From assembly GCF_000006405.1 (NCBI RefSeq), contig NW_003206658.1:342118-406117 (forward strand): a stretch of DNA of 64,000 bases. The letters are read 5' to 3'. Every line of letters begins with the position of its first letter. Within the stretch, counting starts at the first letter, position 1. The position numbers were made by a program, and so were the translations under genes. The notes under the pieces were generated by a model, which saw only the letters and a program-made list of their open reading frames with translations, did no database searches and had not been told where the DNA came from. Positions 1 through 63,625 of this stretch are shown in pieces. Source of the DNA: Perkinsus marinus ATCC 50983. Its lineage: Eukaryota > Perkinsozoa > Perkinsida > Perkinsidae.

Positions 1-1096
1 GCAGGCGATGCTAAAAAGGAGACTGCTGGGGTGGCTCGGGCGATCAGTTCGTTTATATCGCATTCATTGTGTTGGGAAAATCTGTCGAGAATTACGGCAA
101 TAGTGAAGGACAAGGCGGATGCTCGTGGGAGGAGGATGGACGTTTTCTTGAAGGGAATTCACTCACGTAAGTGGTTGAAATATAGGGCGTATTGGAATGC
201 TTGTGGTTTAGCTGTTGACGCTGTACGGGCATATGGTGAACGGAATCAGTTGGGAATTCGCGGAATTGTGGTATCGAACCATGGAGCACGACAGGTCGAT
301 ACTGTGAAAAGCGGCGTGCAGATGCTGTATGAGTGCACGCGTGCTCTCAAGAAGGTGAGGGGAGTATTACAGGGGTAGTCGATCCGTGGGAGAAATAATA
401 AAGGCACTTGAGAGTTTACAGTTGTTCGCCTTCTGGAACGACACTGGAGGCACTAGTATGTATATAGTAAGAAATCACTGACTGATTTTTCTGATATTTT
501 CTCGGCGTGTGTGAGTATCAAATAATGAGCTCGTCGAGAGTTTCAAAGGCTCAATATTGTCACTCGCCACGAAATTCAATAAGTGGGGTCTTTTTTTCCG
601 CAGCATTCGGTGGGGAATCCCAGCGGTTGTAATTGATCTCGCGCTGAACATGGAATTTGATGAGAATGGGTTTACTCCACTCAAATCAAACTTTGATTAT
701 CAAAGATTGATCAATATCTTATCGAATTATGGTATGTCTGTGTTAGGAAAAATTTTTCTCTGCAGGACGACTTTTCTTCTGTGTCAGGCTGGTTGGCGCG
801 GTCGTATCGATCCGGAATTCTCAGTGTTCGTGGATGGTGGTGTGAGGCGTGGTACCGATATCATCAAGTGTATTGCTCTCGGGGCGAGCGCGGTTGGTAT
901 TGGGCGGCCCTTCATGACAGCTATGGCGGCCTTTGGGGAGGCGGGCATGGTCCGGCTGGCAGCTCTGTTGAAGGAGGAGATACTCGTTAATATGCGGCTG
1001 TTGGGTTGCCGAAGTCTTGAGGAGTTGAGTGAAGAATTTTTGGATGCGCGAGCGATGGAACAACCGCCACCTGGGAAGGTCCGGGCACGGTATTAA
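1..1096 (+). CDS. FMN-dependent alpha-hydroxy-acid oxidase/dehydrogenase, 3' part
   Basis: Family enzymes oxidise L-2-hydroxy acids (glycolate, lactate) with FMN. The gene enters from the left edge, so the N-terminus is missing. Three exons fit: 1-166, 212-354 and 788-1096, with introns of 45 and 433 nt, giving about 205 residues. Seen motifs are FISHSLCWENL, LKGI, GIRGIVVSNHGARQVDT (the His and Arg of the active-site SNHGxRQ motif), then VFVDGGVRRGTDIIK and ALGASAVGIGRPF, which bind FMN phosphate. The protein ends MRLLGCRSLEEL followed by a short tail. Intron 2 carries a copy of the 18-bp intronic motif at 559-576. Family assignment is secure; substrate cannot be told. Confidence 0.88.
559..576 (+). 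repeat. 18-bp intronic motif (GTCACTCGCCACGAAATT)
   Basis: One-base variant of the window-wide motif GTCACGCGCCACGAAATT, inside intron 2 of the hydroxy-acid oxidase gene and antisense to it. Confidence 0.7.
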
Positions 1097-1888
1097 AAAT
1101 TTTCATAATAATACTACGACGTATTGTTTCTGAGAGCTCTTGAAGATGTTTTTTTTCTGGAATGCTGTTGTTGGGTTGTTAGCTGAGTGTAGATAGTATG
1201 CAGGATTTGACAGAAAGATGGTATGAAATTGTGGGCGATGCTGTGTATGCATCGCATCAGTATAAGAGAGCTTTCATGGATGCTGCTGATGGGGTTGGGG
1301 ATGTGATATCTCGAAACTAGACGGCATCAATGACCTCTTGGTGCGGTGCTGCTTCTTGCTGAATACCCGCCCGCTCTACATCCACAGCGATAGTGACCAG
1401 ACTTTGATAATACCCGTCGCCCTAGCGTATGGGTGATATATGAGTTGATTCATCAATGTTCCTAGTGAGTGTTGATACTGGACTTACTGTACCTTACTAA
1501 CTACAAGTGCTCTTGGGTGATTATTGGGCTTCTCGTATGTGCTGTTTTTGTTAAGAAGTCGGAAGGTCAATTTTACTTTGAAAATAGAGATGAGATTATC
1601 AAATAAACTAGTGTAAATTTGTATAATAACATATTATTATCCTTATAAAGAGAACGATTGTTGAGTTTAGTTGATACAGTGGGAATGAAGAAAGATGGAA
1701 GACGTGCAGAGTTTCTCATACCACTCCTCGCGCAATTCTCGATTGACGACCTCCAACAACACAATAGTATAAGAATGACAACATTTTGCTAAGACACTTT
1801 TCATGCAGCCGGGCGTATAAGGGGACGACGACGAGAAGGAGGAATCGTCCGTCCGTAATTAAAGCAATGAATTTCCTTCAAGGAACAT

Positions 1889-2962
1889 TCAAGAAGCATC
1901 GATGCTACGACGGTCACGGATTGTCTCGTTGCTGCCGTGAGGGTCGCTATAGTAGCACGGTACGCCTGCATGAGGAGGAGGAGGAAGTGACGACCTAGAG
2001 TGCTGACCCAGCGCCTGCAATTTCATGGCGAATCCAATCGAAAAGCAAGGAAACTTACTTTCTTGAAAGCCCCCCAGGTCCTCGCGGTCAACGGTGCTTT
2101 CTTATCGGCTGAATTCCTGGGGGAAAGACATAGTAGATTCACAGTGTTGGAGGAATATATGTTCTCTTTCCTGAGCTGAGCTCGGGAGTTTCCGTACGAA
2201 CTAGAGTAGAAGTGTTCAGAGACCAAGAAAATTTCCCGTATTTCCTATTGTAATCAACACATAGATGACCATGGGCATATTATTATTCCACACTGGCGAT
2301 TCACCTTACCTTCGACATTTGCTGGCGGAAGGCTCTTGGCAAGTGATCGCACTTGAATCTGAACGACGCTGGCGATGATCGGCAACTCTCTCGAGGAAAT
2401 TTACAACTAATACTGTAAACTGCTATCATTGGAGTTTCACCCGTGATATGAAAACGCAAATAAGTACATTAATATTCAAATACTAAATCAACCTGGAAAT
2501 GCTGTAGTGACAAACTTATTTCGCAAATCACTGCATATCACCGCGAATATCGGGCGTTTTCACAGAGTGTTACGCCATTTCACGTAAAGCTACATCATAT
2601 CTTTATAAATTTTTCATCATATTAATACTAGATAGCATTAAATCACCATTATTTATAAACATGTATTAATATTCCCTTTTACTCCTTACCTTCATCATCT
2701 CGCTTTTCCCTAAAGGACGCGAGCTGTGTTTTACACTTAACGAGATCGTCGATAATGCGTCTGAGGGAATCCATCGGGTTAGGGTAAGAGATGGACGTAC
2801 TTGTTTTCACTCTTCATTTTTTCTAACTCAATACAAGCTTGCTGGTGATTCTTTATTGTTCTCTCATGGGTTGCCAGCAGGTCTCGATATCTATAGTAAC
2901 AGTAGCAGTGTTGTTGTTGTTGTTGGTGATGTTGTTATGATAGTAATAGTGGCATTTGCAGC

Positions 2963-2997
<35 letters not shown>

Positions 2998-4278: not shown

Positions 4279-4351
4279 TGTGGTAGTCGTGGCTCGCCTT
4301 GAAGGAGAAGCAGATCAACTTAGTATTGCTACTTAGGCTTTTGGTTCTCAT

Positions 4352-4754: not shown

Positions 4755-4936
4755 AACGGTGCATGCATAGTCTAGTAACGTGCCTAGATGATAACGTAGC
4801 TCCAGTGGAGTAACCCGTAGTGGTTCCCATCACTTCACGTCTCTAATTCGAAGGCAGTTACTGATCTCGCAAGGTGTTTGTTTATTGGTGTTGACAATGG
4901 TTACTTCTTCTTAGTGCTTAGTTCGCTTTTGAACTT

Positions 4937-5346: not shown

Positions 5347-6198
5347 ATTTTGTCAAGTATTGCGTTGCAGCAAACATTATGTAATCTGCTTCTGTCGTAC
5401 GTACCTATCTCGGTCTAGTACCTGAGATGTGATTAATGAGCAGTTACAATTGACCCATGTCTTGTGTTCTACTGTGGGTGATCAGGTCGGTGATTATGTG
5501 GTGATAGCGACGTATTTCATTATAGTAGTGAATAGTAAATACTTTCATACTCCACACTAGATAGATGTTGTACTCCACGAGCGACGTTTGCACGCTATAC
5601 TCCGCATAGTAAATATTTTCCATGTTGGACATCCCTCAATTCGGATGTAACTCATGGTCTTGAGGGTTCCATGATGCAAGTGTTAGGAGTGTAATCAATG
5701 TGAGACTTTGTTCGTTACCTGTGTTTCAAGATGTATGAGGGTTAAAGTTGGGTAGGCCTGCAGCAATTAGTAGTTCGTGGTTAGAAGCGAATTAGAAAAT
5801 GATCATTCGAGTAATTAAGGAGCCCCAGTGGGGAAATGAATGTTTGTTTAGAGCGACGTGTATTAAGTTTGTACACAACAAAGTAAGTTCGAAGAAAAGT
5901 ATATTTCATGGAACGTGGTGATGGAAACTATCAATCAAATCTACACGTGTTGAAGGCTACTATTAGGAAATGTGAATTGCCCGGTGTTATCCGGGCAGTT
6001 GGCTATATAACGGAAGTGTCGACAGACCTTGCGGAAGCTGCCAGATCTTCACGGACTCTCAAACGGTGCTCAATGTCACGCCTGATGACCAGCCGTGATA
6101 GTCTACTCGCTCGCCCTGGAGAAACGCTCCGACGCCGTGATGATTCGTTATTTATTGGGTATTGAGTATTATTGCTAATTCAGTGACTACATGTACAC
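5347..6198. other. intergenic region, no supported gene
   Basis: Contains several short open frames, including one at 5908-6165 on the plus strand, but none has recognisable motifs or splice-consistent neighbours. Confidence 0.4.
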
Positions 6199-10413: not shown

Positions 10414-11701
10414 ATGGTCCCGAGTGGTAGGAGTCGGCAGACGCCAGTCACTGAGGTGAATTTGAACGGCCGTGATGTACACTTATGGACGTGAGTTGGG
10501 TGGGTTTGGTGTTCCTGAGAATACCATAATTTCTTGAACTTATCGGAGATTTGTAGGTACGACCAGCTGGAGGGTCTCACTAGTTCGGCGTTGCTGCAGA
10601 GGTGTCGAGACCTTAGGGATCGGCTTGGCCCTTCTTTTTCCTGCCCAAGGATTCCCCGGCAGACCGACACTATGTTGAAGTAGGGCCTCTGCTGGAGGGC
10701 CCTTAAGGAGGTGTTTTGTGTAGGTGGATCATTGGAGTACAGTGCGAGGTGTCCGGCCAAGAGCCAGCGGATTTCGGGTGCCCTAGGACGATCTACGATA
10801 AGCCTCAGCCATGTAGGGTGCAGTCGGGGCTGCTGCCGGTAGCTGGGGAGGTAATTTCGTGGCGCGCGGGAATTTCATGTACGTTAGGGCCCTAAGGCGA
10901 AGTGTCCGTCATCAAGTACAGAGGAAGGGCCGCCTTATGCTGGCGATGATCTCGAGAGGTGTTTCGAGTGGTCGTGGCAGCAGCCTACAGACCATGTACG
11001 TGGGGAGGTGAGACATTCGACCGCTTGCTCCAAGTGCTTACCCAGACTTGTCACTATTTTAGGTGGTGAAAAAGAGGGGTGTTGATGTGTTTAAGGAGGG
11101 GAAGAGACACGCCCGACCGTCGGTGGAAGGCTGGAGGGACCACATCTTTGGTAATACTAGTGTACAGGACCCTGGGCCTTGGGGGAGGCGGTTGGGGTCT
11201 CCTGAGGAGGAGGGCTGGAGGGACCATTTCGAAAACGATGGAGTTGGGAATGTTGATGATGTTGTCCATGGCATGAAGCACGCTGATGCGATCACTGAGG
11301 GCTGGGCGGACCATATTCAAGCTGGGACTGTTGGTGAGGGTTCGTCAGCTGTCGAGGATCAGCCCAGGGGAAGGGCCCATAGGGGAGAGTATGAGGCCTG
11401 GAGTAAGGACCATATGCTGGTCGCTGGGGAGGGGATGGAGGACCCACGCCCCCAGGGGAGAAGGGGGCCAGATCGCGAGGCGGACTTTGTAAGGGACCAC
11501 GTGGAAGGAGGCACTACTACTGTTGAGGAGGAGAGGGGAAGGGGAAGGGAACATGTTGGTCCGACGGAGGAAGACCATATTGTGGGGTGGACCGCAGTAG
11601 AGGGTGCTCCTGAGGGGGGCCATGGTCGGAAGCATGGGACGCCGATGGAGGAGGGCTGGAAGGATCATCTTGGGGGTATGCTACCGCCGATGGGGACATA
11701 A
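10414..11701 (+). CDS. SAP-like protein with GWxDH-repeat tail
   Basis: Five exons (10414-10490, 10557-10679, 10724-10850, 10888-11007, 11063-11701) join without a stop into about 361 residues starting MVPSGRSRQTPVTEVNLNG. Residues about 26-65 (YDQLEGLTSSALLQRCRDLR, then PRIPRQTDTMLKWI) resemble a SAP-type helical DNA-binding motif. The C-terminal half repeats an EGWRDHI-type motif about seven times with Gly/Arg/Glu-rich spacers. Intron 3 is only 37 nt and opens with the intronic motif. Function unknown; the long minus-strand frames here are shadows. Confidence 0.6.
10853..10868 (-). repeat. intronic motif copy (AATTTCGTGGCGCG on the plus strand)
   Basis: Sits directly after the GT of a 37-nt intron, sense to the host gene. 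Confidence 0.65.
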
Positions 11702-20089: not shown

Positions 20090-20280
20090 GGCGACAGTAT
20101 AGAATGTATACTGTTCAGCAGCAACTGTTGAATTTTCACAACATGAAAACCTCATTCTTCCCCGTATTACATTCATCTTGACGAACTTCGGAGAAACCGT
20201 TTCGAGGTCAGGTCGCACAGCCGCTTCCCCGGTGCGGCTATCTGATTGGCGCTCCCAGCAGAAAGAGGACGACCCCTGCT

Positions 20281-20296
20281 TCGCGCGCCACGAAAC
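20281..20296 (+). repeat. intronic-motif-like sequence
   Basis: CGCGCGCCACGAAACT; differs from the consensus at one 3' base. Host gene not identified. Confidence 0.4.
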
Positions 20297-21820
20297 TCGT
20301 CCCTCGGCGAACTCGGAGCCTAAGGCACAGTGCGACGGGTTGCTGGTCGAAGTTAGTATTACTATCGAGAATATATCTTCCGGTACTGCCCCAGTAAATG
20401 GTACCTGATGAGAGAATTCCACGCCGTGCCGTCTTAGAGGGAAAGAAGAGAAGAAACTTCCACTGTTCCATCATCTTTTCAAATTTTCCTTTCCTCCTAT
20501 CCCTGTCAGGATCATACTCTCAGTAGACACGACACAATTCTCTAGTGCTAGAGGACCGTAAAAGTACAACTACAAGACTGCTCAGACCCCACAGATTCTC
20601 TTGTTTCCCCAGTCGCATTTATCTCGACCATATTGAGCACGCGCTGTCTAACACGAGGCGTGACACGTCACTTGTCCGAGGTCCACCGCGGATTATTCGA
20701 TGTGGGGTCATTTCCAGTAAACAGTCTACTGCCTGAGGGTCCCTCTTCCTTATCATCTCGTGGAATCAAAGCGTCACTGACCGAGACAGACCCCGCACCA
20801 ACATACATACACACTCCGCAGGATATCCGCTACGACGAAATACCAGGTTCCTCAGCCCGGATACGGACGGCACGAGCCGCGAGCTCCAGCGACTGATACT
20901 AAGCATCGAGCTGTCTTAACAACGTCGCTGACTGAGTGTTAGTCAGGGGGCTCTGAATCTTGACAATAGGCTGACAGACGCTTGATGATTGTCTCCGCGA
21001 ATCACCCTGACCGAATCTAGTAAGCCGACTAAGGCCCTTCTGTTATCGCCACATCCGCTTGCTCGTCGCGAGCACTGGTCTATGATTCTGTCGGCTGGTG
21101 AGGCCCAGCGGCCTAGATGGCCCATGCTCTGCTCAGCAAGCCAGACTGGCTGTCCCTGGACGAGTGCAGAGAACCATAGGAGACTAAGGTATTCCTTATA
21201 CGGAGCCATTCCAGGTCAGCCATATCCGATGGCAACTTCTTCAACTGAGTGCCGGTCTGGACTCCCTCTGCTGACGCTCAGCTTAGAGGCAGCGTGTTCG
21301 TCACAATACCGCCCCGCTGACTGCCCTACTCGTTCCTCTGTCAACAACAGCTTTCCCATTCCAGCTTTAACGCCCCTCTCTCCGGGAGGGACTATCCCAC
21401 CAAGTCGCTGATCGGGCAAGCAGCACTCAGAAGTTCTGAATCAGAACCCTCCAATGCGCTACGAGCTCGTCAACTACTGCGATGAGATGATATATAGGGC
21501 TCTGAGAGCTCGCATGAAAGCCCATGAGATGCACATTGGAGCGCGCGGTCCATATCGGAAGAGCATACCCGCCCTCCAACTCCTGTCCTACCTTGGTGGA
21601 GAGATGAGCAATTGCATCATCATTTCAACGCTCCTCGTTAATGTGTCTCATCGATTTAAACTCGACCCTTCCCTCTGACTCTTTCGTATCGCGAAATGGA
21701 GCAACCCGGACGAAACTCTTCCCGAGCCACTTCATTTCTCACAGTCTCATGTAAATTTCGCTTGCATGCCTCATCATAAAATCGATCGAACCGAGGATGA
21801 GCCCTGCCATAATACCTTCC

Positions 21821-22147: not shown

Positions 22148-22167
22148 CGTCACTGCGCCACGGAATT
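22148..22167 (+). repeat. intronic-motif variant with one extra base
   Basis: CGTCACTGCGCCACGGAATT. It shares with 52885-52904 the reverse-strand form GGCGCAGTGACG, one base longer than the main form. Confidence 0.45.
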
Positions 22168-23009: not shown

Positions 23010-24236
23010 GACGGACTCTGCTACTACCCCCGCTGGAACAGCAAAAGCGGTTGTGGACCGGACGGTCAGCGGATACCTACGAAATGGTGGTCGATCCGGG
23101 TTTTAATACACATATGGCGACGAACCGACTCTACTTCCCACTACAAGCGACTCCATTTCGAGCTAACAACCATTTCCATGATCACGCTCCTTGGCAGATA
23201 CCCTGTATTGAGGTCTCCTTCCCCTTATGATCAGTAGAGCCACCGGGTACCGAGTTGACACAAGCGCAGTAGAAGTATCGTTACTTGCGTGCCACTCCAT
23301 GTGCTGGAGGTAGGGCTATAGTCCTCCTCTCCACTACTGTCACTTTTCAGGAACGGACAGGTAAATTCACCTAAAGTAGCCAGCAAAACTCCAAAAGAAT
23401 CTTAGGTTGACACTGGCAAGATACGGGATAGGTCCAACAGTCAGTACTATTTTCCTTATCATAACTGCCGTGAATCCTTGACCGCCCCAATCCCTTTGAT
23501 CGCCTCATACGTGAGGAAGAGTGTGCCTTGGTGATAGCCAAGTCGGAGTAAAACATAGCGCACGCTGTGGGCCGTCGAGAATACCGAAAAAGGTGCTCCG
23601 AGAAGTACCTGCTATCCACAGTAGGCTCGTATATCACGAGGCCGCCAAGGAGATTGAGAACGAAGAGATACATTCAGAGTCGCTATAAAAGACAATGTCC
23701 CTCTAAGAAAAGGTCCTCCGTTGGGGTTGGAACATATAGAACTATAGGGCGCTCACAAAAGTATCTTCGTCGTAAAGATACAAATAAGGTCCGCTGTCGA
23801 CCTCGATGTTTACCACGATTACCCCTCAGCACCTTGATACCCTACAAAGGGTGTTGGCCTGGGCTGCTGATCTGCTCGCTGCTATCTGGTGGTCGTAGTA
23901 GTTCCATCGGAAACGGTTATTGAGATAAGACCTCGGCACGGCTAGAAAAGAGAGTATCTATTAACGCACGCGTGCAGAGTAGTTCAATGACTGCCAGAAC
24001 ATGCCTTGTCTTCTATCTCGACCCATCCCCCTATGTAGACCGCCCAGAGGTCCTCCTTGGTACCTTCCTCGCTGCTACCGACGGTCATCGGACGAAAGCA
24101 GGAACGCAACGTTCAACATCGCGATGGAGCTGATTTTGTCGCGCGCCACGAAATTCAGCGACGAATCCGCAGTGCACCGAATCTTACATACCCTTTCCTT
24201 GCCAGGGCTTTCTCTATCGCTTGATCAGTGAAGCGC
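23010..24236. other. region without confident genes
   Basis: Several modest open frames on both strands; the best is a minus-strand segment near 23610-23673 (MYLFVLNLLGGLVIYEPTVD). It also holds an intronic-motif copy at 24138-24155. Confidence 0.35.
24138..24155 (+). repeat. intronic motif copy (GTCGCGCGCCACGAAATT)
   Basis: One-base variant, 82 bp upstream of the start codon of the carrier-like gene. An intron around it is not demonstrated. Confidence 0.55.
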
Positions 24237-32199: not shown

Positions 32200-33093
32200 A
32201 TGGGTCGTCTTGTGAGAGCCTTAGAGAACTACGGTTTGACGCCTCAAGACGCTGCTGGAGTCGCCGGCACCTTCCTCGTGGTGAAGTATGCAACGCTGGC
32301 CGCCTTCGTCCCAGCTTGCCACTATGTGCAGCCTATTAGACGTCTTTTCTGGCACCCTTCTCGGGAGCTTGCAGGGAGGATGCTGGAACAATATAGGCTG
32401 CGCAGTAAAGTGCGAGGACATGGTCGGAGTGGTGCTGCTGTTAGTGGTGGCGGCTTCAGTGGTGGGCTTGGGCTAGTGCCTCAGACGGCTAGACTCAAGC
32501 TAGCGGCGACGCGAGCTCGTCAACGAGCGTGGCTTGAGCGACAGAAGGAAATGGTGGCGTTGCGGAAAGCGGGTTGGAAGGGCCGCTTTAGGGGCTTCAA
32601 GGAACAGCAGTCGAGTTCTACATGGGGGAGGAAGGTGTTCGAGTAGGCGGAGCGAAGCGATTTTTGTATCGTGACGTTTTAGAGATATGGATCGAAAATT
32701 TTCACATTTTAGGACGAGAGAGCGTTTTGCATCGATTTTACGATTTTTGTTAGAAATTTCGCCATGTTTCTGTTCAGGTGGAGCGACAAGTTCGCGGAAC
32801 GAGCTTCGCAGGCTTGGGTGTGGCGCAGTGTAGCCAGAATGTTCCGTATACCTCCCAAAGTCCTTGCCTGGGACGTGGCTGAGGCCTTTGTCACCTACAA
32901 GCTCACATTCATCTTCCATGCTCCTCTCGAGCTGTATATCATCGTTAAGTGGTTCAAAGCGCGTCGGGCGAATTTGGATGAATTTATGGAGGAATCGCCG
33001 AAACTGTTGGAGATAGTGGAGGAGGAAGAGCCCTTGTCGAATGCGACGACGCGGTCTCGGTGGTGGCCACCTCAGTTGACTCAACAACACTGA
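32200..33093 (+). CDS. DUF1279/FAM210-like membrane protein
   Basis: Two exons join with GA|GTAGGC...TTCAG|G near 32643-32778. The first holds MGRLVRALENYGLTPQDAAG and LVVKYATLAAFVPACHYV; the second KVLAWDVAEAFVTYKLTFIF and APLELYIIVKWFKARR, then an acidic tail. A YG start, an AY-K helix and a following Pro before the last helix are the pattern of DUF1279 (FAM210) mitochondrial proteins. That family call is from memory and moderate. The open frame extends upstream to 32014, but MGRLVRAL is the better start. Confidence 0.5.
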
Positions 33094-38958: not shown

Positions 38959-38978
38959 CGTCACGCGCCACGAAATTA
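38959..38978 (+). repeat. intronic-type motif copy (CGTCACGCGCCACGAAATTA)
   Basis: Exact consensus, 29 bp upstream of the DNAL1 start and sense to that gene on its reverse strand, followed by an acceptor-like TTCTGTAG; possibly a 5' UTR intron. Confidence 0.75.
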
Positions 38979-39819: not shown

Positions 39820-39838
39820 GTCGCGCGCCATGAAATTA
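39820..39838 (+). repeat. intronic-type motif copy (GTCGCGCGCCATGAAATTA)
   Basis: Two-base variant just upstream of the PH-domain gene start, followed by a second GCGCGCGCC. Confidence 0.6.
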
Positions 39839-40240
39839 AGCGCGCGCCCTGGAATATGTATTCGATGTCGGTTCGTGTGTGTAGTTGAGACATGAAGGAA
39901 CGGAAGCTAAGCCACTTCAATAGGAGGGGGGAAGAGGAAGCTGAAAAGCTATGGAAAGAGAAATGTAGTATTTTGAATCGATTATGGAAATTTTTTTACA
40001 ATTTTTTTTAATGTTTGGTTTTTTTACGGAAAAAATGCGGAATTTTGCGAAAATTTTTGAAAAAAATGAACTTCTACTAGGATCTGCCAGTGACAACATT
40101 GTGGTGAACCTTGTCAGGCTCGGCAGAGGCGTCGAGAGAAGCTGCTAGACGTTACTTGAAGTCTTCAGTTCGTGTTGGGGGTATGCACAGTGGAAAAGTT
40201 GATTATGAAGACAACGAAAGAGTAATAATAATACTATAAT

Positions 40241-40436: not shown

Positions 40437-43400
40437 GTATTCTCTCCAGTGAATGTCCCGTCTACGGTGTTAGCCTCTAGACGCGCCGTCCTCGACAGTG
40501 TTAGACCTAAGATACTCGATCACTCGCCGAAGTCGTGGAATATCAGTAAGATTGTTGATATTCTTTATAACGTGATGAAGCGGCTGAGCTCCGTTGGTGT
40601 ATATCTATTCATTAGAGTGAAAATAATGAGCTTAAAATGTCTAACGCTGTGGACATTGGCAGTGTGGGAGAATATGAATACGCTCAACCACATGTGTTGG
40701 TGACAATATGAAAATTCTGAGGGAATTCTCGTTGCTTTCTGAGTTTTTCTACTCCAATCCGTGTGTAAATTGTATAGTTAGTGAGGAAACTCCCCCACAC
40801 ACCGTAGCATAGCGTAATGAAGCGGTTAGTCTACATCTGATGATCGGACTGAAAATGATAAAATAAGACTGAAATTGACCACGCTGTGGAGATAAGATTT
40901 TCGAAATTGATCTTTTTGTTTGAAATTATAAATCACGAAGTTTTAGGAATCAGGATTGTTACTTATTAGTTTTCAGAGTTTTATGGTTGTACTTTCTCCG
41001 TTTCTTTGGAATAATTTCGTGGCGCGTGACGGTGTTGAAATGGGGAGTGAATTTGCAGTTTGCTTGGCATTAGGTGTGAAGACGGATGAGAAGCCTGTTA
41101 GGAAAGATTTGAGAAAGCAGTTGTTGATGGTTCGAGCGGGGCTCATGGACCAACCAGTGGTAGGTAATGGACCTCATCTGAATCTTACCGCGGGGGCAGG
41201 ATTTGTATCTTTTTGGTCCAGGATCGATTTGTGTTAATATGTCCGGTTTTTCCCGCAAAAAAATTGCGAGAATTATTTTTTCCCTTTGTAGTGGAAAACG
41301 AATTCGAACGACAAGGAGATTTCAGTCGCCGATTTCCCCTCAACTTTTTCACGAAAAGAGCGGAATATAATTCGACACGTCGGTATGGTCACTGGAAAGG
41401 GACCAGTGGGGAGTCTCACGAAGCGATGGTTCAACTTGGTGGATGAGAAAGGTAGGGGAGGGGAATAATGAGAAAAAATTTCGACATTTTTTTTGAGGAA
41501 AAATTTTTTCGGCCGCTTTTTTGAATAGTGTGGGAGAATATGCACATGGTCAACCGCATATTGGAATTTCGAGGAAAATTTTGGAAAATTTTCCTGATTA
41601 TTCTTGCACGTTTTTACCCGGATTCGTATGTAGACTTTCATAGCTAGTGAGGGCGATGTTGGGTCTCGGGTGAACACCGATGTGCAAGGCATCTGCCCTT
41701 TTTGCTTCATAGAGTGGACATGATGAAAGTAGACATGTGAAAGGCTGAAGCTGATCACTCGATAGTTAATGTGCATCGATGCAAGTCTGACTAGGCCGTG
41801 CTGTCGTAGTGGGCGTTGGACTTTCAAAGTGTTCAAATTTTTTCAAGAAATGCCACCGTGAATCGCAAAGGGTGAATCCAGTTTGGTATGTAAATGTGGG
41901 TTTTATATTCCGGGAGTGATGATAGTGAAAACTAGTCTCGAAAGGTTACTTTTATCACATCACATTTTCATAACAATGTTTATAATATTCATGCGATATA
42001 GTTTCAGATCGATTCTCATTTTGCATATCAAATTGACAAGCACTGTATACTGCTATATTTGATGCATGGTGACCATCTATAGAGACTAGAAGTGTGAATA
42101 GATTCTTTTCACGATTTGATACTGACGAGTGGGGGCGCGAAATCGAATACTAGGCATAATTCGTGACGAAGGGGCGAAGCTCGTATCTTTTGATTGAGCT
42201 GTTGGGAAATGATGATCGTTGTGGAGATGTGATGAGCAAAATTGATTTTCAATTGCGCTGGTCGTGGTCATTTGAAAGTCATAGATCTCGGATCGCTCAT
42301 CAAACTCTACCCTGGAATTAGTATCCTCTTGCTGCGCTCGCTCCGGTATCTGGTTTTAGTGGTGGAATTTTCCATTTTGCATTTATGGCAGTGACGTGTT
42401 ATGTTGTGGTAATATAGGGTTGTACCACTTAATGTCGGTGGAGTTCAGCAAGGAGTGGTATGAGTGTCGGTCTCCTCAGGTGCCAGTCGCCACAGTGCGA
42501 ACCCTGAGAATGACTTCATCGGATCGTGGGATATCTCCTCTAGCACGTGTCAGCCTGCTGACGTTGATGCTCGATTGAAGGCGTTTGTGAAGGCTGAGAA
42601 GAGGAGGATTAGAATGAATGGTGATGTCGATGTTCATGTTAATAGTGAAACGTATAGGAGGTAGTAGTGGGTGGAAATCTTGAAATCTTGCGCTCTCTTG
42701 CTATTTCTCAACGGTGAGTGATATGTGGGGGCAGTGTTGGAATATATGTTCGCTTTCCTCAGCTGAGCTCAGAAGTGAGGTTCCTCACTAGTTTTTATAC
42801 GAATTCGGGTAGAAGTGCCCAGACACGAACAGGATTTTTCCCGGAATTTCCTCGAAATTTTCGTATTGTTACCAACACATATCAACACAAGTTGACCATG
42901 TTCATATTTTTCACACACGAACTGTGTAAGGGTTCTCATTTTTAACATTTTTTGCAATCGATTTTGGAGTAAGTGTGTTGAGAGTTGAATCTTGGGTATC
43001 TTGCTCTCACTTGCATTTCCTCAACGCTGTTCAGTCCTGAAGAACAAGTGGTGGAGTTGCAGGAATTGGTTAGGGAGAAAAAACGGCAGTATGCTGATCT
43101 TAGGGGGGAGTTCATAAGAGAGCTCAGGAGGGAGGTGGGATATGATGTAATTTTTCGCGCGCCACGAAATTATTGATCAGTTCCCTCATGCGTCGTTGAT
43201 GAGGCTGGAGGCGATGGCGAGGCGGCTATTGGATGAGAAACTGCTGTCTGATGAGAAGGTGGGTTTGTGATGTAAAAAGCGCGCGCCATTCTGATCGATT
43301 TGGGTTTTCGTGAAGGAGATCGACTGTAGGGCTCACAGTTTTGTCCATGTTCAGAATCGGCGATATCCGATCGCACGCGAGAGCTTCCGCCCGAATCTCT

Positions 43401-43694
43401 CATTGACAACGCAGGATAGGAGGTAGGTCAGCATTTGTGATGGGGAAATTTTGCGGAAATTTTCCGAGAATTTTCGGGAAAATTTCAATCGAGGTATCGC
43501 GAGCATCACCATCCGGGAACGTTTGGTATGATGGAGATGGAGGGAAGGGAGGCGTGGTCGTGTTGTTTGAATTACGACCAGGCGAGTCGAGGATGCGAGT
43601 GAGTGACTTCTGGTGAATTTCGTGGCGCGTGACGGAGTTCTGTGGTAGGTATAGGGTTGTTAACCCAGATGCTTGGTGTTTGTTGGGATTTTGA
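40437..43694 (+). CDS. coiled-coil protein with C-terminal His/Cys cluster
   Basis: About nine exons on the plus strand: VPSTVLASRRAVLDSVRPKI, TDEKPVRKDLRKQLLMVRAG, RHVGMVTGKGPVGSLTKRWF, ARLKAFVKAEKRRIRMNGD, EEQVVELQELVREKKRQYAD, FPHASLMRLEAMARRLLDEK, EIDCRAHSFVHVQNRRYPIA, YREHHHPGTFGMMEMEGREA plus WSCC, and YRVVNPDAWCLLGF. The middle is coiled coil; the end has an HHPG...WSCC...GC cluster that looks zinc-binding. Introns carry repeats A and D and three intronic motifs. The start exon is not found, and no family is recognised. Confidence 0.5.
40656..40795 (-). repeat. repeat A, copy 6
   Basis: GTGTGGGAGAATATGAATAC, ACCACATGTGTTGGTGACA and TAGTTAGTGAGGAAACTCCC. In an intron of the His/Cys-cluster gene. 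Confidence 0.75.
41011..41033 (-). repeat. intronic motif copy, identical over 23 bp to that at 63533-63555
   Basis: Plus strand reads AATTTCGTGGCGCGTGAC between ATA and GGT. It lies in the intron ending at the TTAG before 41074, sense to the host gene. Confidence 0.85.
41527..41660 (-). repeat. repeat A, copy 7
   Basis: AGTGTGGGAGAATATGCACA, TGGTCAACCGCAT, and TAGCTAGTGAGGG at the other end. In an intron of the His/Cys-cluster gene. Confidence 0.75.
41690..41830 (-). repeat. repeat D, copy 2
   Basis: Inverted match to 12045-12160; lies in an intron. The long minus-strand frame here (41273-41836) is only repeat sequence. Confidence 0.75.
42740..42920 (+). repeat. repeat A, copy 8
   Basis: CTTTCCTCAGCTGAGCTCAG, AGTTTTTATACGAATTCGGG-like middle, and GACCATGTTCATATTTTTCA. 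In an intron. Confidence 0.8.
43156..43173 (+). repeat. intronic motif copy filling a 46-nt intron
   Basis: CGCGCGCCACGAAATTAT inside the intron between RELRRE and FPHASL; antisense to the host gene. Confidence 0.85.
43616..43635 (-). repeat. intronic motif copy
   Basis: Plus strand AATTTCGTGGCGCGTGACGG, 18 nt after the GT of the last intron of the His/Cys-cluster gene, sense orientation. Confidence 0.85.
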
Positions 43695-49888: not shown

Positions 49889-52800
49889 ATGTCGGCAAGT
49901 ATTGTCGGTGTCAAGGCTGCTAGTTCGCACAGTAATGACTCGAACGACATAATGCTAGTGTCTTCGCGAGGAGCGAACCTCCTCAGGGATCCAGTACGGG
50001 CTCTTGAGTATCTTACTAGTAGTCGTTTTTTATCAACAGGTTCTTAATAAAGGAACCCAGTTCAGTGAAATTGAGCGTGATGAGCTGTCACTGCGTGGTC
50101 TGATTCCGGTTCGTCAGTGCACCATCGAGATGCAGATGTCACGGAATATGGAGCGATTACGCATGAGGGACACCGACCTTTCTCGGTTTCTGGATCTACA
50201 AGGTGGGCGCTATCCTGACGATTTCCACTTCTCTCAATCCAGTGGTATTATCATCGGCTCGTTTTGGCTTCTGCTGCTGATCAAAGCTATCATACCTGTA
50301 GACGTGATTTCTGTTTGAGTAGATAGAATTGCACTCAAAAGTGAATCTCAAAGTTATTGTGAAGTAAAACTTTCCGCTTTCCGTTGTTTATTCAATTTCG
50401 GCGATCTCCTTTCTCAGCTATATTCGACCGCAACGAGACCCTGTACTACCGGCTGTTGGTCGATAATTTGGAGGAGCTCCATCGGATTGTTTTTATTCCC
50501 ACTGTTGGTGATGTGTAAGTCGGTTTCGGTTTTTCCCCTTGCACGAGTTCAAGATTCGACTCGGACACCCAGCGCGGGGCATTTTGAGGAATCACCACCC
50601 TTGCTTTCGGCTTGCTCGGATCGTCTCGAAGTCACAGTCTGTGAGTCACAGACGCAAATTCATTTTCAGAGTTTTACTGAGTTCACCATGAACTTCATAG
50701 TATGAAGTCTATCGAAAAGGTTGTTAGTATTTTTCGGCCTGGAAATACCGGAGCGATTCCACTGTATGTGACCCTTCAGTGCCAAACAACGTTCGTTTCC
50801 CAGTCGGGCTGGGAAACAAGGCCTGGTTGACAAGCCTGAGAGATTGAGTGGCTCTTTATCTCGGGAACATCCTGTAGGCCGGAACGATTGAGCCTGGCTC
50901 ACCTGCACAACGCTATCGCAACCAATTGGCCAACTATTAGGTGGATGAACTTACCGTTATTCTGGAAAATGGCCGATAAAGCGTAAACATGTCGAGAAGA
51001 AGATGAGCCCTTGAGACTCTACGATACAATCTGTATCCTGCGTACCACGGAGCGCGGACGGTCCATATTCGCTTCAGCAGAAGATTTCTGATCTTTATGT
51101 TTGCTTCACGTTACTATGAACATTATGTTACACTCCGTTATAGAATGATGACAAACTACGTCAAGGCCTGTCAAATGGCTATGGATTGCACATTCAACCT
51201 CGTGTAGCTGGGCTGTGCCATCATAACTATTTTGGCGTTCACCACTGGCGGATCGACGAAGCCAGTGATACTTGGTCTCGTGTGTTTGGAGAGCGGCAGT
51301 TATTGCAAATTGCGTAGCCGTTCATCATCATTAAGCTGATTTGGTTCGAATTTCGGTCAACAATGGCTTTAAGTAGTCGTCACAAACCTGATAGGGAATA
51401 ATCCCTAGGCCTCAGATTAAGCATATCTGAGTCGGCTATTCTATGGACGAGTACTCGTGAATTATGATACGGATCTGATGAGGTGCCTTGGCGGTACACC
51501 CAGGGTCAGCACATGCAAGATCAACGCGATGAATACGGAGTGCCTCGATCATTGCGTGGAATTGAGACCGCTGTACATGTGTGTTGGATCATCCAGCTTG
51601 GATGCCACGGTCACTTTTCTCACTCAGTGTGGCTCACTGAAGAACCTTCTTGTGTTATAGGATTCCTTCTGTGAGCGCATTGAACGCTTAGGTCGTCTCT
51701 CTCGAGGAGCACAGAGACACTCGCTGAGAGAGCTCATATATGGTTCTCGTGAAATTGTTTTTTACAAAGCTCGTTGAGGGATTCACATCGAACCGTTCGA
51801 CAGTTCCTCAATAATGATGGAGTGTCAAGACGTTGTATTCGTTTACAGAAAGTCCGTAATTGTGTACACATTCGTTCGGTTGTTCTATCATCTACTCTTG
51901 TCCAGGTGCAAACAGTTCGGTAGTGTCTGGCGTTTCCCTAGAGGCCTGTATTTCACTTACAGCGATAAGGGCCATTTTCAGGAAGTTGTTTATAACTGTC
52001 CCAACGAGGACGTCGACCTTGTGGTGGGAAGCTTTCGTTACACGCGTATCTTTGAATCTCGTATTTGACCAGGTCGTCACCGATGGTAGTCGTATTTTGA
52101 GTCTTGGCGACCTCGGCGCTAACGGCATGGGTGTTTCTGTCGGGAAAATATCGCTGTACGTTGCGTGCGCCGGCCTGAACCCCGGTCGAGTCCTGCCGTG
52201 CATCCTCGATATTGGTACTGACAACGAGGATCTCCTCAATGATCCGCGGTACATTGGAGAACATACTAGGAGATTGAAGGGCAACGATTACTTTGCTATG
52301 GTCGACGAGTTTGTGTCCGCGGTGCTCACACGGTGGCCAAACGCGGTTATTCAATGGGAAGATTTCAGCTACCCTAATGCCTTCATGATACTGGATAATT
52401 ATAGCAACTCAATACGTAAGATGCCGGGATCGAACCGGGGTCGATGGGATGATAGAGGACACCTTGTACCGTACGAGCTGCTCATCAGGCACATTCAACG
52501 ATGATGTCCAAGGAACGGCTGGTGTGGTGCTCGCAGCTATCTTAGCGGGTCTGAAGGTGAGCATGATATGAAGGTCTCGCTCTTCACTAATGGTATTTGC
52601 TTTCTGCTTGGTGAATTTCACCGCAGCAACATGAGATTACCTCAGACACGAGCATATCTCCAGTCCAAGAAGAGCAATGCAAATCAGCCTAGGCTCACGA
52701 AGAAGCGTTACTCACTGGACGGTCAGCGCTTCGTGAGTTTTCTTCACTCCGTTGGTGTGGGTAAGTGCGATCCTCGCAGGTCTTTGCTGGTGCTGGTGGC

Positions 52801-54536
52801 GCAGCTGTTGGTATCGTACGGCTGATCTGCGAGGCATTGGTACAGGAAGGCGTACCATTTGAGGAAGCGAGTGGGACGATTGCGAATTTTGTGGCGCAGT
52901 GACGTTATTCCCTCTACAGAGTCTCGAATTTGGCTGATAGACTCCAAGGGTCTGGTCAGTACGGATCGCCAGACGAGTATGAAATTGCGAAGGGCAGAGC
53001 AAAGTGAGTCTGGAAGCGAGTTGCCCTTCGCTCCGCTGAGATATTTCTTCGAATTTAGATACCGTGTGAACTATGTGCAGCCACCAATGAAATGTGGCAA
53101 GAACGATCTCCTCTCGGTGTGAAGGAGGTCAAACTACAGTGTTGATCGGGTAGGAATATCCTCATGTTGAGCGAGAAAGATACAAAATAGGCTAGGATTG
53201 AGCACTTTCTTTCAGGGTATCAGCCCAGAGCGGATTGTTTTCCTCTGAAGTTCTTCAAGCGATGAATGCCAACTGCGAGTACCCCATCGTGTTCAGTCTG
53301 TCCAACCCGACCAATTGCTGTGAGTGCACTGCTGAGGAGGCCTATAGGGCCACTGACGGCAAGTGCTTGTTCGCCTCTGGAAGCCCCATGCCGGCCTATC
53401 GTAATCATCACACGCTGGTGTCATTGTTGTTGTTGTGACTCAACACCCTCAGACGTGCCCACGCAGAACTCCTACAAGCTGAGCTCGCGTGTGTTCCCCG
53501 AAACTGATGAGCATTTCATTCCGGCGCAAGCTAGCAACATGTACGATAATCCATTTAACTACTCATACTTGGATGATGTTCGGTTTTGGATTGATGAATA
53601 CCTGCGAGTCAGGTACGTGTTCCCTGGCATCGGCTTGGCAGCGTCAACAGGGAATCTCGCTACTATACCGAACCAGCTCTTTTACATCGCTGCAAGTGAG
53701 TGGAAGACCTCTCATGATTCGCCTTCAAATGAGCTGTGGGTATTTTTCTCTTCGTTACTACTGCGAAGTGATAACTGGTTTCAACATGAGGAGCTTGATC
53801 TTCGTACTGTCCTTTGATAAGCATACCATTATTCGGCTATCAAAGGCAACTTGGGAAGGAAACGCCGATGGTGTTTTGCCATGACTTTTGGTCTCATCTC
53901 AGGAACGATCGCGTCGATGGTCACAGTGGAGGAGATGAAGACGAGGACGCTTCTGCCGCCTATGTCAAAGCTGAGGGAGACTGCCTGTAAAGTGGCCGCC
54001 CAATGCATCATATACGGGTCCAAGAAGTAGCGAGCTTCAAAATGTCGCGCGCCACGAAATTGTAGTTCACTGTTACTCGCTCTTCAGGGGGTTGACGAGA
54101 ATCCAAACGCCTTTGGATGCTGAAGTGTTTGTCAAGTCCAAGATGTGGTATCCCGAGTGAGTTATTCCCTTGGCTTTAGCGTTCTAGGCTGCATCCTGTC
54201 AGATACAAGCATTATCTTCCGACAGCACCAGTGCATGCTCATCATGAGGTGGATAATCAAAAGGTCCCGGGATCGATCCGATGTTCCGTGTTTCTCCAGA
54301 TATTACCATCTAGTGGGACTGCCTTCACCGACTCCTCCAATTTAGCGCACCGAGCATCTTCTCATCGCCAGAGGATCCATAGGATGCCTCAGAAGGCTGC
54401 CGAGGCGACCATTCCTGCCTGGGAGAGTACCGCGCAAACAGCCAGAATGTCATTGATGCAGTCCAGCGAGTCGTCGTTAGAATGTGAGGGAAAGGGCTTA
54501 TGTTTCCTCCTGGAATTCCATGCCGACCTCAGGTGA
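49889..54536 (+). CDS. malic enzyme (NAD(P)-dependent, decarboxylating)
   Basis: Converts malate to pyruvate and CO2. From [20 protein letters not shown] (49889) exons give [192 protein letters not shown] and [14 protein letters not shown]. The metal (EDF, NDD) and dinucleotide (GAGxA) sites are kept. The junctions at 53010-53130 do not keep one frame. The last open stretch to TGA at 54536 is longer than usual. Two introns hold the intronic motif. Confidence 0.9.
50514..51905 (+). other. 1.4-kb intron of malic enzyme
   Basis: Between ...IPTVGDV and CKQFGSVW. Far longer than the other introns of this gene. I see no repeat A or B copy and no gene inside it. Confidence 0.6.
52885..52904 (-). 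repeat. intronic motif variant in a 48-nt malic enzyme intron
   Basis: Plus strand AATTTTGTGGCGCAGTGACG: consensus with one substitution and one inserted A. Sense to the gene; the intron is that between FEEA and KSRIWLI. Confidence 0.75.
54044..54061 (+). repeat. intronic motif copy in a 67-nt malic enzyme intron
   Basis: GTCGCGCGCCACGAAATT between GGTCCAAGAA|GTAG and CTCTTCAG|G; antisense to the gene. Confidence 0.85.
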
Positions 54537-57588: not shown

Positions 57589-57601
57589 GATTTCGTGGCG
57601 C
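57589..57601 (-). repeat. partial intronic-type motif upstream of the ADP/ATP carrier
   Basis: Plus strand GATTTCGTGGCGC then diverges. Only the AT-rich half of the motif is kept; 29 bp upstream of the carrier start. Confidence 0.4.
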
Positions 57602-57619
57602 TGGAAGTTATGTTTATAA

Positions 57620-57735
57620 TGGAGTTTCACCCTAGTGATATGAAAAACTATATTTCACGACTACTGCATATCACCGCGAATATCGCGTTTTTCACCAAGT
57701 TTTACACCACTTCACGTAGAACGGATGAAACTCTA
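57620..57735 (+). repeat. repeat B, copy 5
   Basis: TGGAGTTTCACCCTAGTGAT, CTACTGCATATCACCGCGAA and the terminal ACGGATGAAACTCT: near-complete, with 15-bp terminal inverted repeats. Confidence 0.9.
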
Positions 57736-58031: not shown

Positions 58032-60991
58032 TCAGACTGCTGTCCTCCTATACAATACTGAGAGACCGCCATCCCTATACTCCTCACGAGTCAACCATAC
58101 TCGCTTGAATGAGCTCAGACTTGATACCACACTTCCGCCAACCCACGCTGAGAGCTTCCCTGAACCTCGACTACGTCACGCGCCACGAAATTACCCCCAA
58201 TGCGACTCACGCTCTGGAGGGGCGCAGATTTTAATTCTTGCATCCTTCGGAACCAACTTGCGCATTTCCGACAAAAGCCTCTCGCCGAACCTTCAGCACA
58301 ATCACGTACAGTACGCGACATGTAAAACGCGTAATTCTTATCATACCGGTTTTTCCCGAACCACATCTACTTTTGAGCTAATTTCTCCACCGAGCATTTC
58401 AGATATACATAACCTTTGCAAAAAGTGTTTCAGAATCTCGTGAGAGTGAAACTCAATTTTGAGTGAGAATTCCGGAATCAAATCTTGCACAAGTACGGTT
58501 AACATCATCAATAATCAGTAGGTCAAAATTGACCAGTGGAGCCTGGAGAAAAATATGACGGTTTTAGACACTCACGGTGTGGGGCTACAATTTTTTGAGA
58601 GAAGTGCAGCCCGCGAGGTTTCGAAACAGCCTCTATACCGAAATCTAAGTATCAAACCCCTTTCCTGACTCACCCTGGGAATAACGTACTGCCACCAGCG
58701 AGAACCTACAACACGGAAAATTCAAATCTTGCGAAACGCTCTAGAATTTCGGTAACTTCACATTATCTATTTTCATATCGGGACACGCGTTAAAGAACTC
58801 GTCGATCTTCACCAGACTGCCTTACTCGATCACATCCCACTTAAAGGCAATGTTGGAGGAATATATGTTCCCTTTCCTCAGCTGAGCTCTGGTAAGAGTG
58901 TACAGAAACCACCAAAAATTTTGTCAAATTTCCTCATAATTTTCTTATTATCACCAACACACACACTTGACCATGTGCATATTCCGACTCCTACTTCAAA
59001 ACTCTTACCACATTTTGCAGCAGCGTTCGCCTTAGATCCATATCGCTCTTCTGTATGGCCTCATCCAGTAGCAGATGCACACCCTGGTCCGCCGAGGCCG
59101 CCATTGCTGAGGACATATCTACCCTATATACCACAGAAAAGGAGGAGGGGACACCCACTGGGATTGAATATTATCTCCGGGGCTTGGAAACGCTCAAGGC
59201 CGATGTTGATTATAGAACCATCTGGGAGTTCATACTGAACATGAGAAGATTTGGCACTCATACGCGACCAAAACATTTTTCATTTTTTCGGTCACCAAAT
59301 TGAACAATATAGTTTCGCCCGTTTCACGTAATACTCTGTGAAAAACGCGATATTCGTGGTGATATGTAGTAGTCGTGGAATATATTTTTCACTAGTGTTT
59401 CTCATATCACTAGGGTGGAACTCCATTGTGTTCAAAAGTGCGCAAAAATATTCTTTTCGAAAATCCAGTCCGTGGCACATTTAAAGAGTAAAACCATTTT
59501 CAGGGAATTCCAATCATTCGCAGTGGTTTTGATTGCCACGTAAATTTGGATCTCCACATTACACGTAGTGTATATTCTGCGAAAACCGTTTCAACAACCT
59601 CACACATTTCTCTGGTATAAACAAAAGAATAAGATCAATTCTCGCTGTAACAACTGAGCAGTCGAGCCCACCGTGTGATCCAATGTTTGCTTAGTGCCAG
59701 CCCTCCTGGGGTCCCTGTCGAACTCCCACTCAGTGCCACCGCGCCATGCCCTTTGCACGGCTGGATGCAGGGATACGGCACAACAATCTTCCTTCATAGT
59801 GCGGACTATCTAAGGTTGCTATCATCAAGATTCAGAATAGGCCCAAAAATGACCCACCTCTCGATCCGCCGTAGATAGCAAATGCACTCCACACTGCCTT
59901 TTGAGCGACAACTGCAGCCACTCAGTAACGCTCCTGACCATGCAAGGCTACACAGATGAGGACAGAGGCTCGAGCACCTCCCAGCTGATTCACCACGAGT
60001 GGCCGCATGCCCTACTGCATACCCCTCATAGACAGGCATAACCTAAATCGGTGAATGTATGTAGATGATATTCAGAACGTGATGGGAAGACCTGTGCTAC
60101 GCCGTCACCGATGTCCAGCACCACTCCAGTAGTCCGACCAGATGCATACAGAGAAAGAACAGGAGAGCAGGCGATGTGGATGGCTGGTACCTGCACACTG
60201 CTGCTAACCGAAAAGTCGTGGGTTCGAATCGGAGGGGAATCATCCAGCAAACTCGACCCATTTTGAATTTTCCACCTATGGCTAGGAACACATTCTTCAA
60301 TCAGTTTCCCATGTAAATGTCATCACATTAGAAACATTCTCACGTTGTTATCAAACCCTGGGGACGTTATTTCGCAAAGCCAGATGGGTCCCCGGCAAGT
60401 TACCTTAAAGACTTCGAAGAGACATTCTGCCAGCTTCTCACGGTGAATCATGGGATTCAACGGCGGCTCGCTTATCAGTACCTACCACGCCAGCAGCAAT
60501 TCTTTTGTAGCTGTAATAGTTGCATAAACCAAAGCTCTACCGGATGCTCCTGAGACCTGCACTTTAGCCCTTCACTGAACACATGTCGCCATATGTGTTC
60601 CATGCCCTCCCAATCAGTAACACTGCCATGCGTAATAGGATACTGTATATCCAACAACCCTCGGGAACTGGTCTCGAGTCGACTTCCTACTACTGCCACC
60701 ACCTGCTCGGGTACGTCAACTATGCAAGATTATAAGGCTCACCTTATTCCCAACAGAACCGCCAATTTTGCTGCCCTTAGTCGGCTTGGTCACTTCCGAT
60801 GGCCCCTCAACACCCTCCATCACTTTACGGTACTTAGGGTAGCCCACAGCTGAGAGTATTTGGACCTAATCCGTGCATGTCACTGGGGGCACGAAATGAA
60901 TCTTTGCCACCTGGGGTGAATTCTCCCCCGAAAATCCAGCCTTAATACACCCGCTGCCATTGTCGATCACTACTGGCTGATTGCCAAGCAT
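58032..60991 (-). CDS. divergent actin / actin-related protein
   Basis: About eleven exons from [20 protein letters not shown] (60991): [35 protein letters not shown] plus [48 protein letters not shown] plus [121 protein letters not shown] and [19 protein letters not shown], ending at TGA 58032. Both phosphate loops and the hinge are present, but identity to actin is modest. There is an extra charged insert ([17 protein letters not shown]). Introns hold repeats A, B, C and one intronic motif. Confidence 0.88.
58174..58193 (+). repeat. intronic motif copy in a 51-nt intron of the actin-like gene
   Basis: CGTCACGCGCCACGAAATTA, exact consensus; sense to the minus-strand host, in the last intron, between KICAPPE and RKLSAWVGG. 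Confidence 0.9.
58853..58990 (+). repeat. repeat A, copy 12
   Basis: ATGTTGGAGGAATATATG, TTTCCTCAGCTGAGCTCTGG and TTGACCATGTGCATATT. In an intron of the actin-like gene. Confidence 0.85.
59309..59425 (-). repeat. repeat B, copy 6
   Basis: AGTTTCGCCCGTTTCACGTA at the left, TCACTAGTGTTTCTCATATC and GGGTGGAACTCCA at the right. In an intron of the actin-like gene. Confidence 0.88.
60245..60395 (-). repeat. repeat C, copy 2
   Basis: Inverted match to 16705-16850; fills most of the intron between LFEVFK and VPAIHIA of the actin-like gene. Confidence 0.8.
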
Positions 60992-61150
60992 CACAAGAAT
61001 AATCCAATGCACTACGCGCGCGCCCGATTGATCGATTGTTGACAACTCAATACCGGCCGGCTCGAAACACTTAGAAACGTATTGATAGAGTCACATATTC
61101 TACAAAATGGTTTTCCAGAAAAATAAGAAAATTATTCGAAATGCGATCGT

Positions 61151-62252: not shown

Positions 62253-63399
62253 CCTAATGTTCGTATTTTTTGGTATACTACAGAGTGCCCCAAATACAAT
62301 GCGCTATTGCCTGTAACATGCAGAATTTCCCACTGAGAGATAGCTCATTAGGAAGATTTTGGCGAGCACTTTTCAATGGTATCTTTGAATTCCAAACATG
62401 CTTGGTGCCATATCGCGTTCATTTACCATGAAAAGTTCGGCCTCAACTTTTTCGCACGGATTTTGAGCGATTTTGGGTAACCTAATTATGCATAGCACGG
62501 TAGGGCCAAAGCATTTTTGGAATTACCATTGCAAAGTGCTCGCCAAGATCTCTCTAATCAGCCATCCCTCACTGGGAAACAGTCTCGAGGCAATAACACA
62601 TAGTATTCGCGACATCTGTATTTTCTCCTAGGTTCTACTTCACTACGTATAGTTCCTCTTCCCCAAAGTTGTCATTATAAGTATTCAACAAACTACTAGC
62701 ACCCGTGTAAAGGCGAAGTACCGATCAGTCGTTATCATAGGAAGCATCGACAAAGACCGATTATTGAGATCACAAGGATGGAGGTGATGCCGGGCCCGAA
62801 GGGAAAGAAAGCATCGGCGTCATTAGGCGCAGAATTCACCCCTATTCCATAGTATCACTGAATACTCCTATCACTAGTAGTAACCACCGCTGACTCCCTA
62901 TTGCTCGGTAGTCCCCAAAGAAATGTGACGACTCATCACTAGGTCTTCGTGACGAAGGGGCGGAGTTCACTTAGTCCACGTCTATTGATTATATCAATGA
63001 ATTTGACCTAGGTCCCCGGTTAAGCTAGAATAATTCTGCACGCACGTACGCACAATGCGAAAGTGCCTGCTGTTGTGGTATATGCTCCGCTCGCTCCGCA
63101 ACATTTCTGCAGTGGAGTTGATCTATTCATCACTGATGAGTGGATCAACTCCACTGCAGGTCTAGACCATGCAGTATCTAGCAAGGTTGCCCTTGAACGG
63201 AAAGTTTGGAATCACTTCATAGTGACCATAATAAGAGCAGTGGCTGCTGGTCACCCCTTCAATGGCAACTTCTCCCCTATGGTCTTCCTATCACTCTAGG
63301 AGCAACCATCACTCCTTCAGAGCTTTCATAAGTTCATCATAATAACGACAATTGGAACTCCTATTATGAATTTCCCACAATACATATTTCAAAACTCTA
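62253..63399. other. intergenic region with a long hairpin
   Basis: No supported gene. Holds a 53-bp palindrome (63107-63159) and a 17-bp word shared with 42160-42176. Confidence 0.4.
63107..63159. repeat. 53-bp palindrome
   Basis: CTGCAGTGGAGTTGATC (63107-63123) and GATCAACTCCACTGCAG (63143-63159) pair perfectly; the loop contains a further inner palindrome TCATCACTGATGA. Confidence 0.92.
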
Positions 63400-63625
63400 T
63401 TACTTGTGCACTGCATCGAAACAAATTTCCCCGGGCCAAGTGCCCCGTGTCAAGAAGTGCTTCGCAGATTGGTTCGCAGCAATCACATTGACGACCAACA
63501 CTGACGCTGCTGAGCAACTCACCTGCAGTGAAACCGTCACGCGCCACGAAATTATCATGCCCTGTTACTCACCACCAGCCACATATAAAGCTCAGCAACC
63601 ACTTTCTCGCGCGGAGGCTTTAGTG
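63400..63625 (-). CDS. C-terminal exons of an unidentified gene
   Basis: Minus strand: KPPREKVVAELYMWLV, a 51-nt GT-AG intron holding an exact intronic motif, then VSCSAASVLVVNVIAANQSA and KHFLTRGTWPGEICFDAVHK with TAA at 63400. Too short to assign. The plus-strand frame here reads through the motif and is probably a shadow. Confidence 0.4.
63533..63555 (+). repeat. intronic motif copy, longest exact match
   Basis: GTCACGCGCCACGAAATT plus flanking bases, 23 of 23 identical to the reverse strand of 41011-41033. Sense to the minus-strand exons on either side. Confidence 0.9.

Follow-up and report, generated by a model that had tools for sequence, protein, structure and literature searches.

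A near-invariant 18-bp motif, mostly in predicted short introns and dispersed across the Perkinsus marinus genome, is a candidate DNA-binding site

The window analyzed here is a 64,000-bp stretch of Perkinsus marinus ATCC 50983 (contig NW_003206658.1, positions 342,118 to 406,117), in which a short sequence, the 18-mer GTCACGCGCCACGAAATT (hereafter the motif), recurs in or beside genes that include those for an FMN-dependent dehydrogenase, a leucine-rich repeat (LRR) protein, a malic enzyme, and a mitochondrial carrier. The motif is near-invariant and is dispersed across the P. marinus genome in both directions. An initial annotation of this DNA had listed about 15 copies, and at all 15 places the motif, or something close to it, is indeed present, with starts that differ by 0 to 3 bases from those first given (Table 1). 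Twelve of the 15 have at most three substitutions, and a 14-mer scan accounted for the others, two of which contain a one-base insertion (22149 and 52885) and one of which is partial (57589). That the motif recurs beyond chance was borne out by shuffling: the 12 window copies with up to three mismatches compare with a mean of 0.04 and a maximum of 1 in 100 shuffles. The 23 identical bases previously noticed in two copies belong to those at 41013 and 63536 and consist of ACC, the 18-mer, and AT. The minus-strand LRR protein gene beside the copy at 38960 is one whose product we take to resemble dynein light chain 1.

Table 1. Motif copies, near forms, and homology-supported introns in the window.
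Feature	Position	Strand	Context
Motif, 1 mismatch	559..576	+	Predicted intron 456-603 of FMN-dependent dehydrogenase gene; gene finder only
Motif, 3 mismatches	10853..10870	-	Intron by gene finder only
Motif, 3 mismatches	20280..20297	+	Exonic per gene finder
Insertion-form copy, GTCAC-T-GCGCCACGGAATT	22149..22167	+	From 14-mer scan
Motif, 1 mismatch	24138..24155	+	Predicted intron
Motif, exact	38960..38977	+	Just upstream of predicted start of minus-strand LRR protein gene
Motif, 2 mismatches	39820..39837	+	Predicted intergenic; AAGCGCGCGCC directly after
Motif, exact	41013..41030	-	Placed in exon by gene finder; intron unconfirmed
Motif, 2 mismatches	43154..43171	+	Predicted intron
Motif, exact	43616..43633	-	Predicted 50-bp intron 43599-43648
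Malic enzyme intron, 49 bp	52871..52919	+	Spliced protein aligns with NADP-dependent malic enzyme 7x11_A without gaps over the junction
Insertion-form copy, antisense	52885..52903	-	Within 49-bp malic enzyme intron
Malic enzyme intron, 61 bp	54027..54087	+	Junction covered by weak second HMMER domain only
Motif, 1 mismatch, sense	54044..54061	+	Within 61-bp malic enzyme intron
Partial copy, AGCGCCACGAAATC	57589..57602	-	Just upstream of mitochondrial carrier open reading frame; adjoins end of an element like a miniature inverted-repeat transposable element (MITE)
Motif, exact	58175..58192	+	Predicted intron, minus-strand gene
Motif, exact	63536..63553	+	Predicted 50-bp intron 63523-63572, minus-strand gene

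Counted across the 54.46-Mb assembly, as the initial annotation had proposed, the 18-mer occurs 291 times exactly, 925 times with up to two mismatches, and 1,238 times with up to three, against 0, 0, and 10 occurrences of the reversed control. Copies with up to two mismatches are evenly divided between the strands (454 and 471). These genome counts are biased both ways, by stretches that read N and by second-haplotype contigs. Exact scans elsewhere found nothing above chance in prokaryote genomes (eight matches versus ~7 expected by hand estimate) and no match in viral contigs. A literature text search for the 14-mer core of the motif was without match, and the titles and opening abstract lines of the literature matches listed describe no Perkinsus cis motif of this kind.

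Alignment of 62 copies showed 18 bases in common, preceded mostly by C or T and followed mostly by A or C, with no strong shared sequence outside ~24 bp around the motif; the flanks are unrelated, as had been reported. A rough consensus drawn by eye joins [GTA][TC]C[AG]C to GCGCCA[CT]GAAATT, either directly or through one inserted base, T or C. In the genome, the right-hand 13 bases (GCGCCACGAAATT) outnumber the left-hand 13 (708 versus 334 copies), and variants of the left side are few and discrete; among the first 100 of 266 copies preceded by C, GTCAC predominates and TTCAC is next commonest. The one-base-insertion form is widespread, with 135 places matching GTCAC, six bases, and ACGAAATT; in the 100 of these that are listed, the inserted base is T or C in 96 and G in 3, and 1 is unrelated. 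The six bases before the motif (positions -6 to -1) come close to AATTTC, which mirrors GAAATT; 21 of 77 copies agree with it at four or more of the six positions, when ~3.6 would be expected.

The center of the motif was assessed with a scan that held positions 1 to 6 and 13 to 18 fixed and is therefore informative for positions 7 to 12 only. The 100 matches listed, out of 353, comprise 82 exact copies, 16 variants, and 2 unrelated sequences, and the substitutions in the 16 variants, counted by hand, fall at positions 7 through 12 as 0, 0, 1, 0, 3, and 14, a distribution that is far from even (chi-square P 1e-9). Among these matches, CGCC at positions 7 to 10 is near-invariant and most position 12 substitutions change C to T. 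CpG decay alone is insufficient to explain this pattern, because the CpG at positions 7 and 8 would also be struck, yet among the matches listed it is untouched. On lists of 100 matches each, the motif shows the position-specific tolerance that would be looked for in a DNA-binding site.

We located copies relative to genes with a home-made gene finder trained on 239 kb, comprising the window and 20 further stretches that were each chosen for an exact motif copy; it over-calls introns, assigning 46% of bases to introns and 2% to intergenic DNA. In the sampled stretches, 29 of 37 copies with up to two mismatches were intronic, 6 exonic, and 2 intergenic, while the intronic fraction of 1,735 GC-matched random 18-mers was 0.376. 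The 29 predicted introns have a median length of 59 bp, of which the motif fills about a third; published Perkinsus introns are mostly shorter than 100 bp (PMC3101222). Homology supports the two malic enzyme introns (49 and 61 bp) and motif introns in genes for a PRP16-like helicase and LSm2, the latter with its true acceptor downstream of the one chosen by the gene finder. In a WD40 gene (locus L010), presumably NLE1-like, the motif lies in an intron of 55 bp bounded by the consensus GTAAGT...TTCAG. The claim that the copies are mostly intronic thus holds in the wider sample as judged by the gene finder; within the window, homology support is confined to the copies at 52885 and 54044, and the copies at 39820 (called intergenic) and at 41013 and 20280 (both called exonic) do not conform to it.

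By gene-finder strands, 15 of the 29 intronic copies are sense and 14 antisense, and this presence in both orientations is what a double-stranded DNA-binding site would display. The nine copies that the initial annotation had counted as six sense and three antisense come out instead as three sense and six antisense. The strand balance bears directly on whether the motif might act in RNA, as an intronic splicing enhancer, a branch-point helper, or a structured RNA. Such an element would suit the location in short introns and the proximity to the predicted donor, which lies within 20 nt of the motif in 17 of 29 predicted introns. It would be expected in a fixed orientation, however, and sense and antisense copies are equally frequent; moreover, RNA folding was ordinary in four motif introns (z -1.32 to 0.69), an Rfam scan of the window gave no match and one of nine motif loci at a permissive threshold gave a single sub-threshold match, and many introns do without the motif. 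We consider a splicing element very unlikely.

Constraint was examined in paralogs. Two genes that are ~70% identical, on C40 and C60, each have two motif copies at matching places, and a gene on C13 and its 76% identical paralog on C197 likewise carry two copies apiece at matching places. Over these four sites, 2 of 72 motif bases differ, with no gaps, whereas 30 of 120 differ in the nearest 15 bases on either side and 166 of 680 in flanks 16 to 100 bp away. The difference between motif and flank divergence has a naive P of 5e-7; a correction for selection of sites, in which the site chosen on both sides was left out and the rate was halved for sites chosen on one, raises P to 0.004, or to 0.018 if the rate is taken as 20%. 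That these sites are introns is our own reading of GT...AG ends, seconded by the gene finder for C13. On these few sites, the motif is conserved against a diverging background, as a binding site would be.

Haplotypes gave a second comparison. Small contigs (C24 versus C345, C13 versus C79) look like alternative haplotypes of larger ones, with 92 to 98% identity over long stretches, so the genome motif counts are partly duplicated. Over the compared stretches, where these pairs are 96 to 98% identical, all six motif copies are present in both members, with one substitution in total. In the same stretch of C24 as motif copies, a MITE-like repeat of ~175 bp is missing from C345, where query positions 5937 to 6137 are bridged by 17 bases.

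These comparisons weigh on the possibility that the motif is a mobile trace: a very small element, or else a transposon or introner end, that was copied widely and persists chiefly in introns. Such copying would leave near-identical copies by the hundred, in both orientations, as seen here, and motif-bearing tandem arrays with 33- to 64-bp units (at C95, C104, C126, and C281), an excess of close neighbors (13 gaps below 2 kb versus 3.3 in simulations of 72 copies on 18 contigs that left N stretches unmodeled), and the presence of introners in relatives of Perkinsus (PMC7789003) also speak for it. We nevertheless find it unlikely, since copies have no sequence in common past ~24 bp, sites in diverged paralogs are retained almost unchanged, none of the six haplotype-compared copies is polymorphic while the nearby repeat is, and the substitution spectrum is non-uniform. 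Nor does a target-site duplication stand out among 77 copies at 575 offset pairs per word length; the best signal, from 4-mers, was 3 versus 0.16 expected before correction.

Two named classes of element are likewise a poor match. A MITE or other terminal inverted repeat transposon does not fit copies that are single, lack a shared body, and do not look like this genome's MITE-like families. Introner elements of the related alveolate Amoebophrya are the nearest printed lead, described in PMC7789003 as families of repeated introns with 8- to 20-nt inverted repeats that pair the intron ends and 3- to 5-nt direct repeats. The Perkinsus motif is like them in being a repeated sequence inside introns with some inverted-repeat character, and unlike them in being only ~18 to 24 bp long, in lying inside the intron, and in having no standout direct repeats. 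As far as tested, the defining features of that class are absent: similarity does not extend over whole introns, the flanks being unrelated outside ~24 bp; no direct repeats stand out at the insertion edges of 77 copies; and recent spread is not seen, all six haplotype-compared sites and all four paralog sites being kept.

We conclude that purifying selection probably maintains the motif as a double-stranded DNA element, and that it is most likely the unusually long site of one sequence-specific DNA-binding protein. This reading is best because the motif is strand-symmetric, position-specifically constrained, and located in gene bodies. Among the origins that the initial annotation had entertained, a protein-binding site, with a putative protein, is the one that both orientations, position-specific tolerance, and retention between paralogs would favor; a splicing element and a mobile trace are disfavored for the reasons above.

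Several observations count against this conclusion. Six of 37 copies were called exonic, one of which (L021:7709) lies in what looks like a genuine coding repeat, and both the intron enrichment and the strand counts depend on a gene finder that separates introns poorly from intergenic DNA. The paralog test comprises two pairs and four sites; the first pair drew attention through the motif copies in both of its genes, one or both copies at three of the four sites were chosen for being exact, and the intron status of the sites comes from GT...AG ends and the gene finder. Copy counts are inflated by alternative haplotypes in the assembly. Finally, window copies touch genes with unrelated functions, and no regulon is therefore evident. 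Unrelated host genes would be natural for a protein-bound site that serves chromosome maintenance and not gene regulation, such as a replication origin, a meiotic pairing or recombination site, or a domain boundary. Motif density is also uneven between contigs, but we give that test no weight because it is confounded: in one apparent desert, 11,478 of 12,002 bases are N. We view a maintenance role of this kind as distinctly improbable.

Several known systems offer parallels. CTCF and the yeast general regulatory factors have many strand-independent sites with a long fixed core, tolerated spacing variants, and intronic occurrences, and differ in belonging to unrelated lineages and in being known proteins where the binder here is putative; we use this comparison as an analogy and make no claim of membership. 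The pairing-center and dosage-compensation motifs of Caenorhabditis elegans are similarly short fixed words with many repeats and unrelated flanks, with a difference in the chromosome-specific clustering of those motifs, on which the density test of the Perkinsus motif is confounded by N. The chromosome breakage sequence of Tetrahymena, also an alveolate, is a fixed word of ~15 bp in hundreds of copies; by contrast, DNA elimination is neither known nor seen here, and the Perkinsus copies lie within genes.

If the motif is a binding site, introns may house it since binding within genes is wanted or tolerated, and a fixed 18-bp word, which would disturb coding exons, could be kept in introns without altering proteins. 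The putative bound protein might act on gene-body transcription, chromatin, or chromosome organization, and a bipartite or multi-domain binder would fit both the variants in spacing by one base and the weak left arm, in which AATTNC mirrors GAAATT. Perkinsus is a neighbor of the dinoflagellates, a group with aberrant chromatin. More tentatively, and with doubt prevailing, we suggest that one putative protein with an exceptionally long, near-invariant site of ~18 bp could dock in hundreds of genes, whatever their function, by way of their short introns, the introns being protected landing pads that organize chromatin or transcription. A fixed, long, intron-embedded element in hundreds of copies would provide a direct handle on its putative binding protein, and it raises the question of why a short intron should devote about a third of its length to such a site.

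Other repeats accompany the motif in this genome. A second dispersed short word with unrelated flanks, (A/G)GCGGAGCGAAGC, lies at 32646 and 53025 in the window. As a 12-mer, GCGGAGCGAAGC has 917 exact copies in the genome, against 1 for the reversed control, and 31 copies with up to one mismatch in 240 kb of sampled DNA; 19 of 31 copies of the 13-mer at one mismatch are in predicted introns. It does not clearly co-occur with the motif (5 near 93 motif copies versus 3.6 expected). A half-like word, AAGCGCGCGCC, is found near motif copies at 39838-39848 and 43277-43287, and AGCGCGCGCC occurs 8 times in 240 kb versus 0.3 expected. At loci L049, L050, L051, and L087, tandem arrays carry the motif in each 33- to 64-bp unit, and the C281 array has a 44-bp unit with the T-insertion form in at least 12 repeats; motif-bearing arrays may be ordinary minisatellites. 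Tandem repeats with 25- to 100-bp units gave 10 rows at 7 places in 240 kb.

At least two MITE-like families, ~160 to 200 bp by eye, are present, the first with CAGTGTTGG-like ends and the second with GGAGTTTCAC/GTGAAACTCC ends; window elements lie at 33568, 41540, 42753, 45311, 46384, 47350, 57664, 58872, and other places, and the C24 repeat missing from C345 is of the CAGTGTTGG-end kind. A tRNA scan found no tRNA genes in the window. Words resembling the tRNA T-arm, GGGATCGAACC and GGGATCGATCC, occur in malic enzyme introns (52416-52488 and 54249-54299), and GGGATCGAAC is overrepresented in 240 kb (9 versus 0.41 expected). One open reading frame of the window has named protein matches only in Perkinsus olseni (56%) and P. 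chesapeaki (46%).

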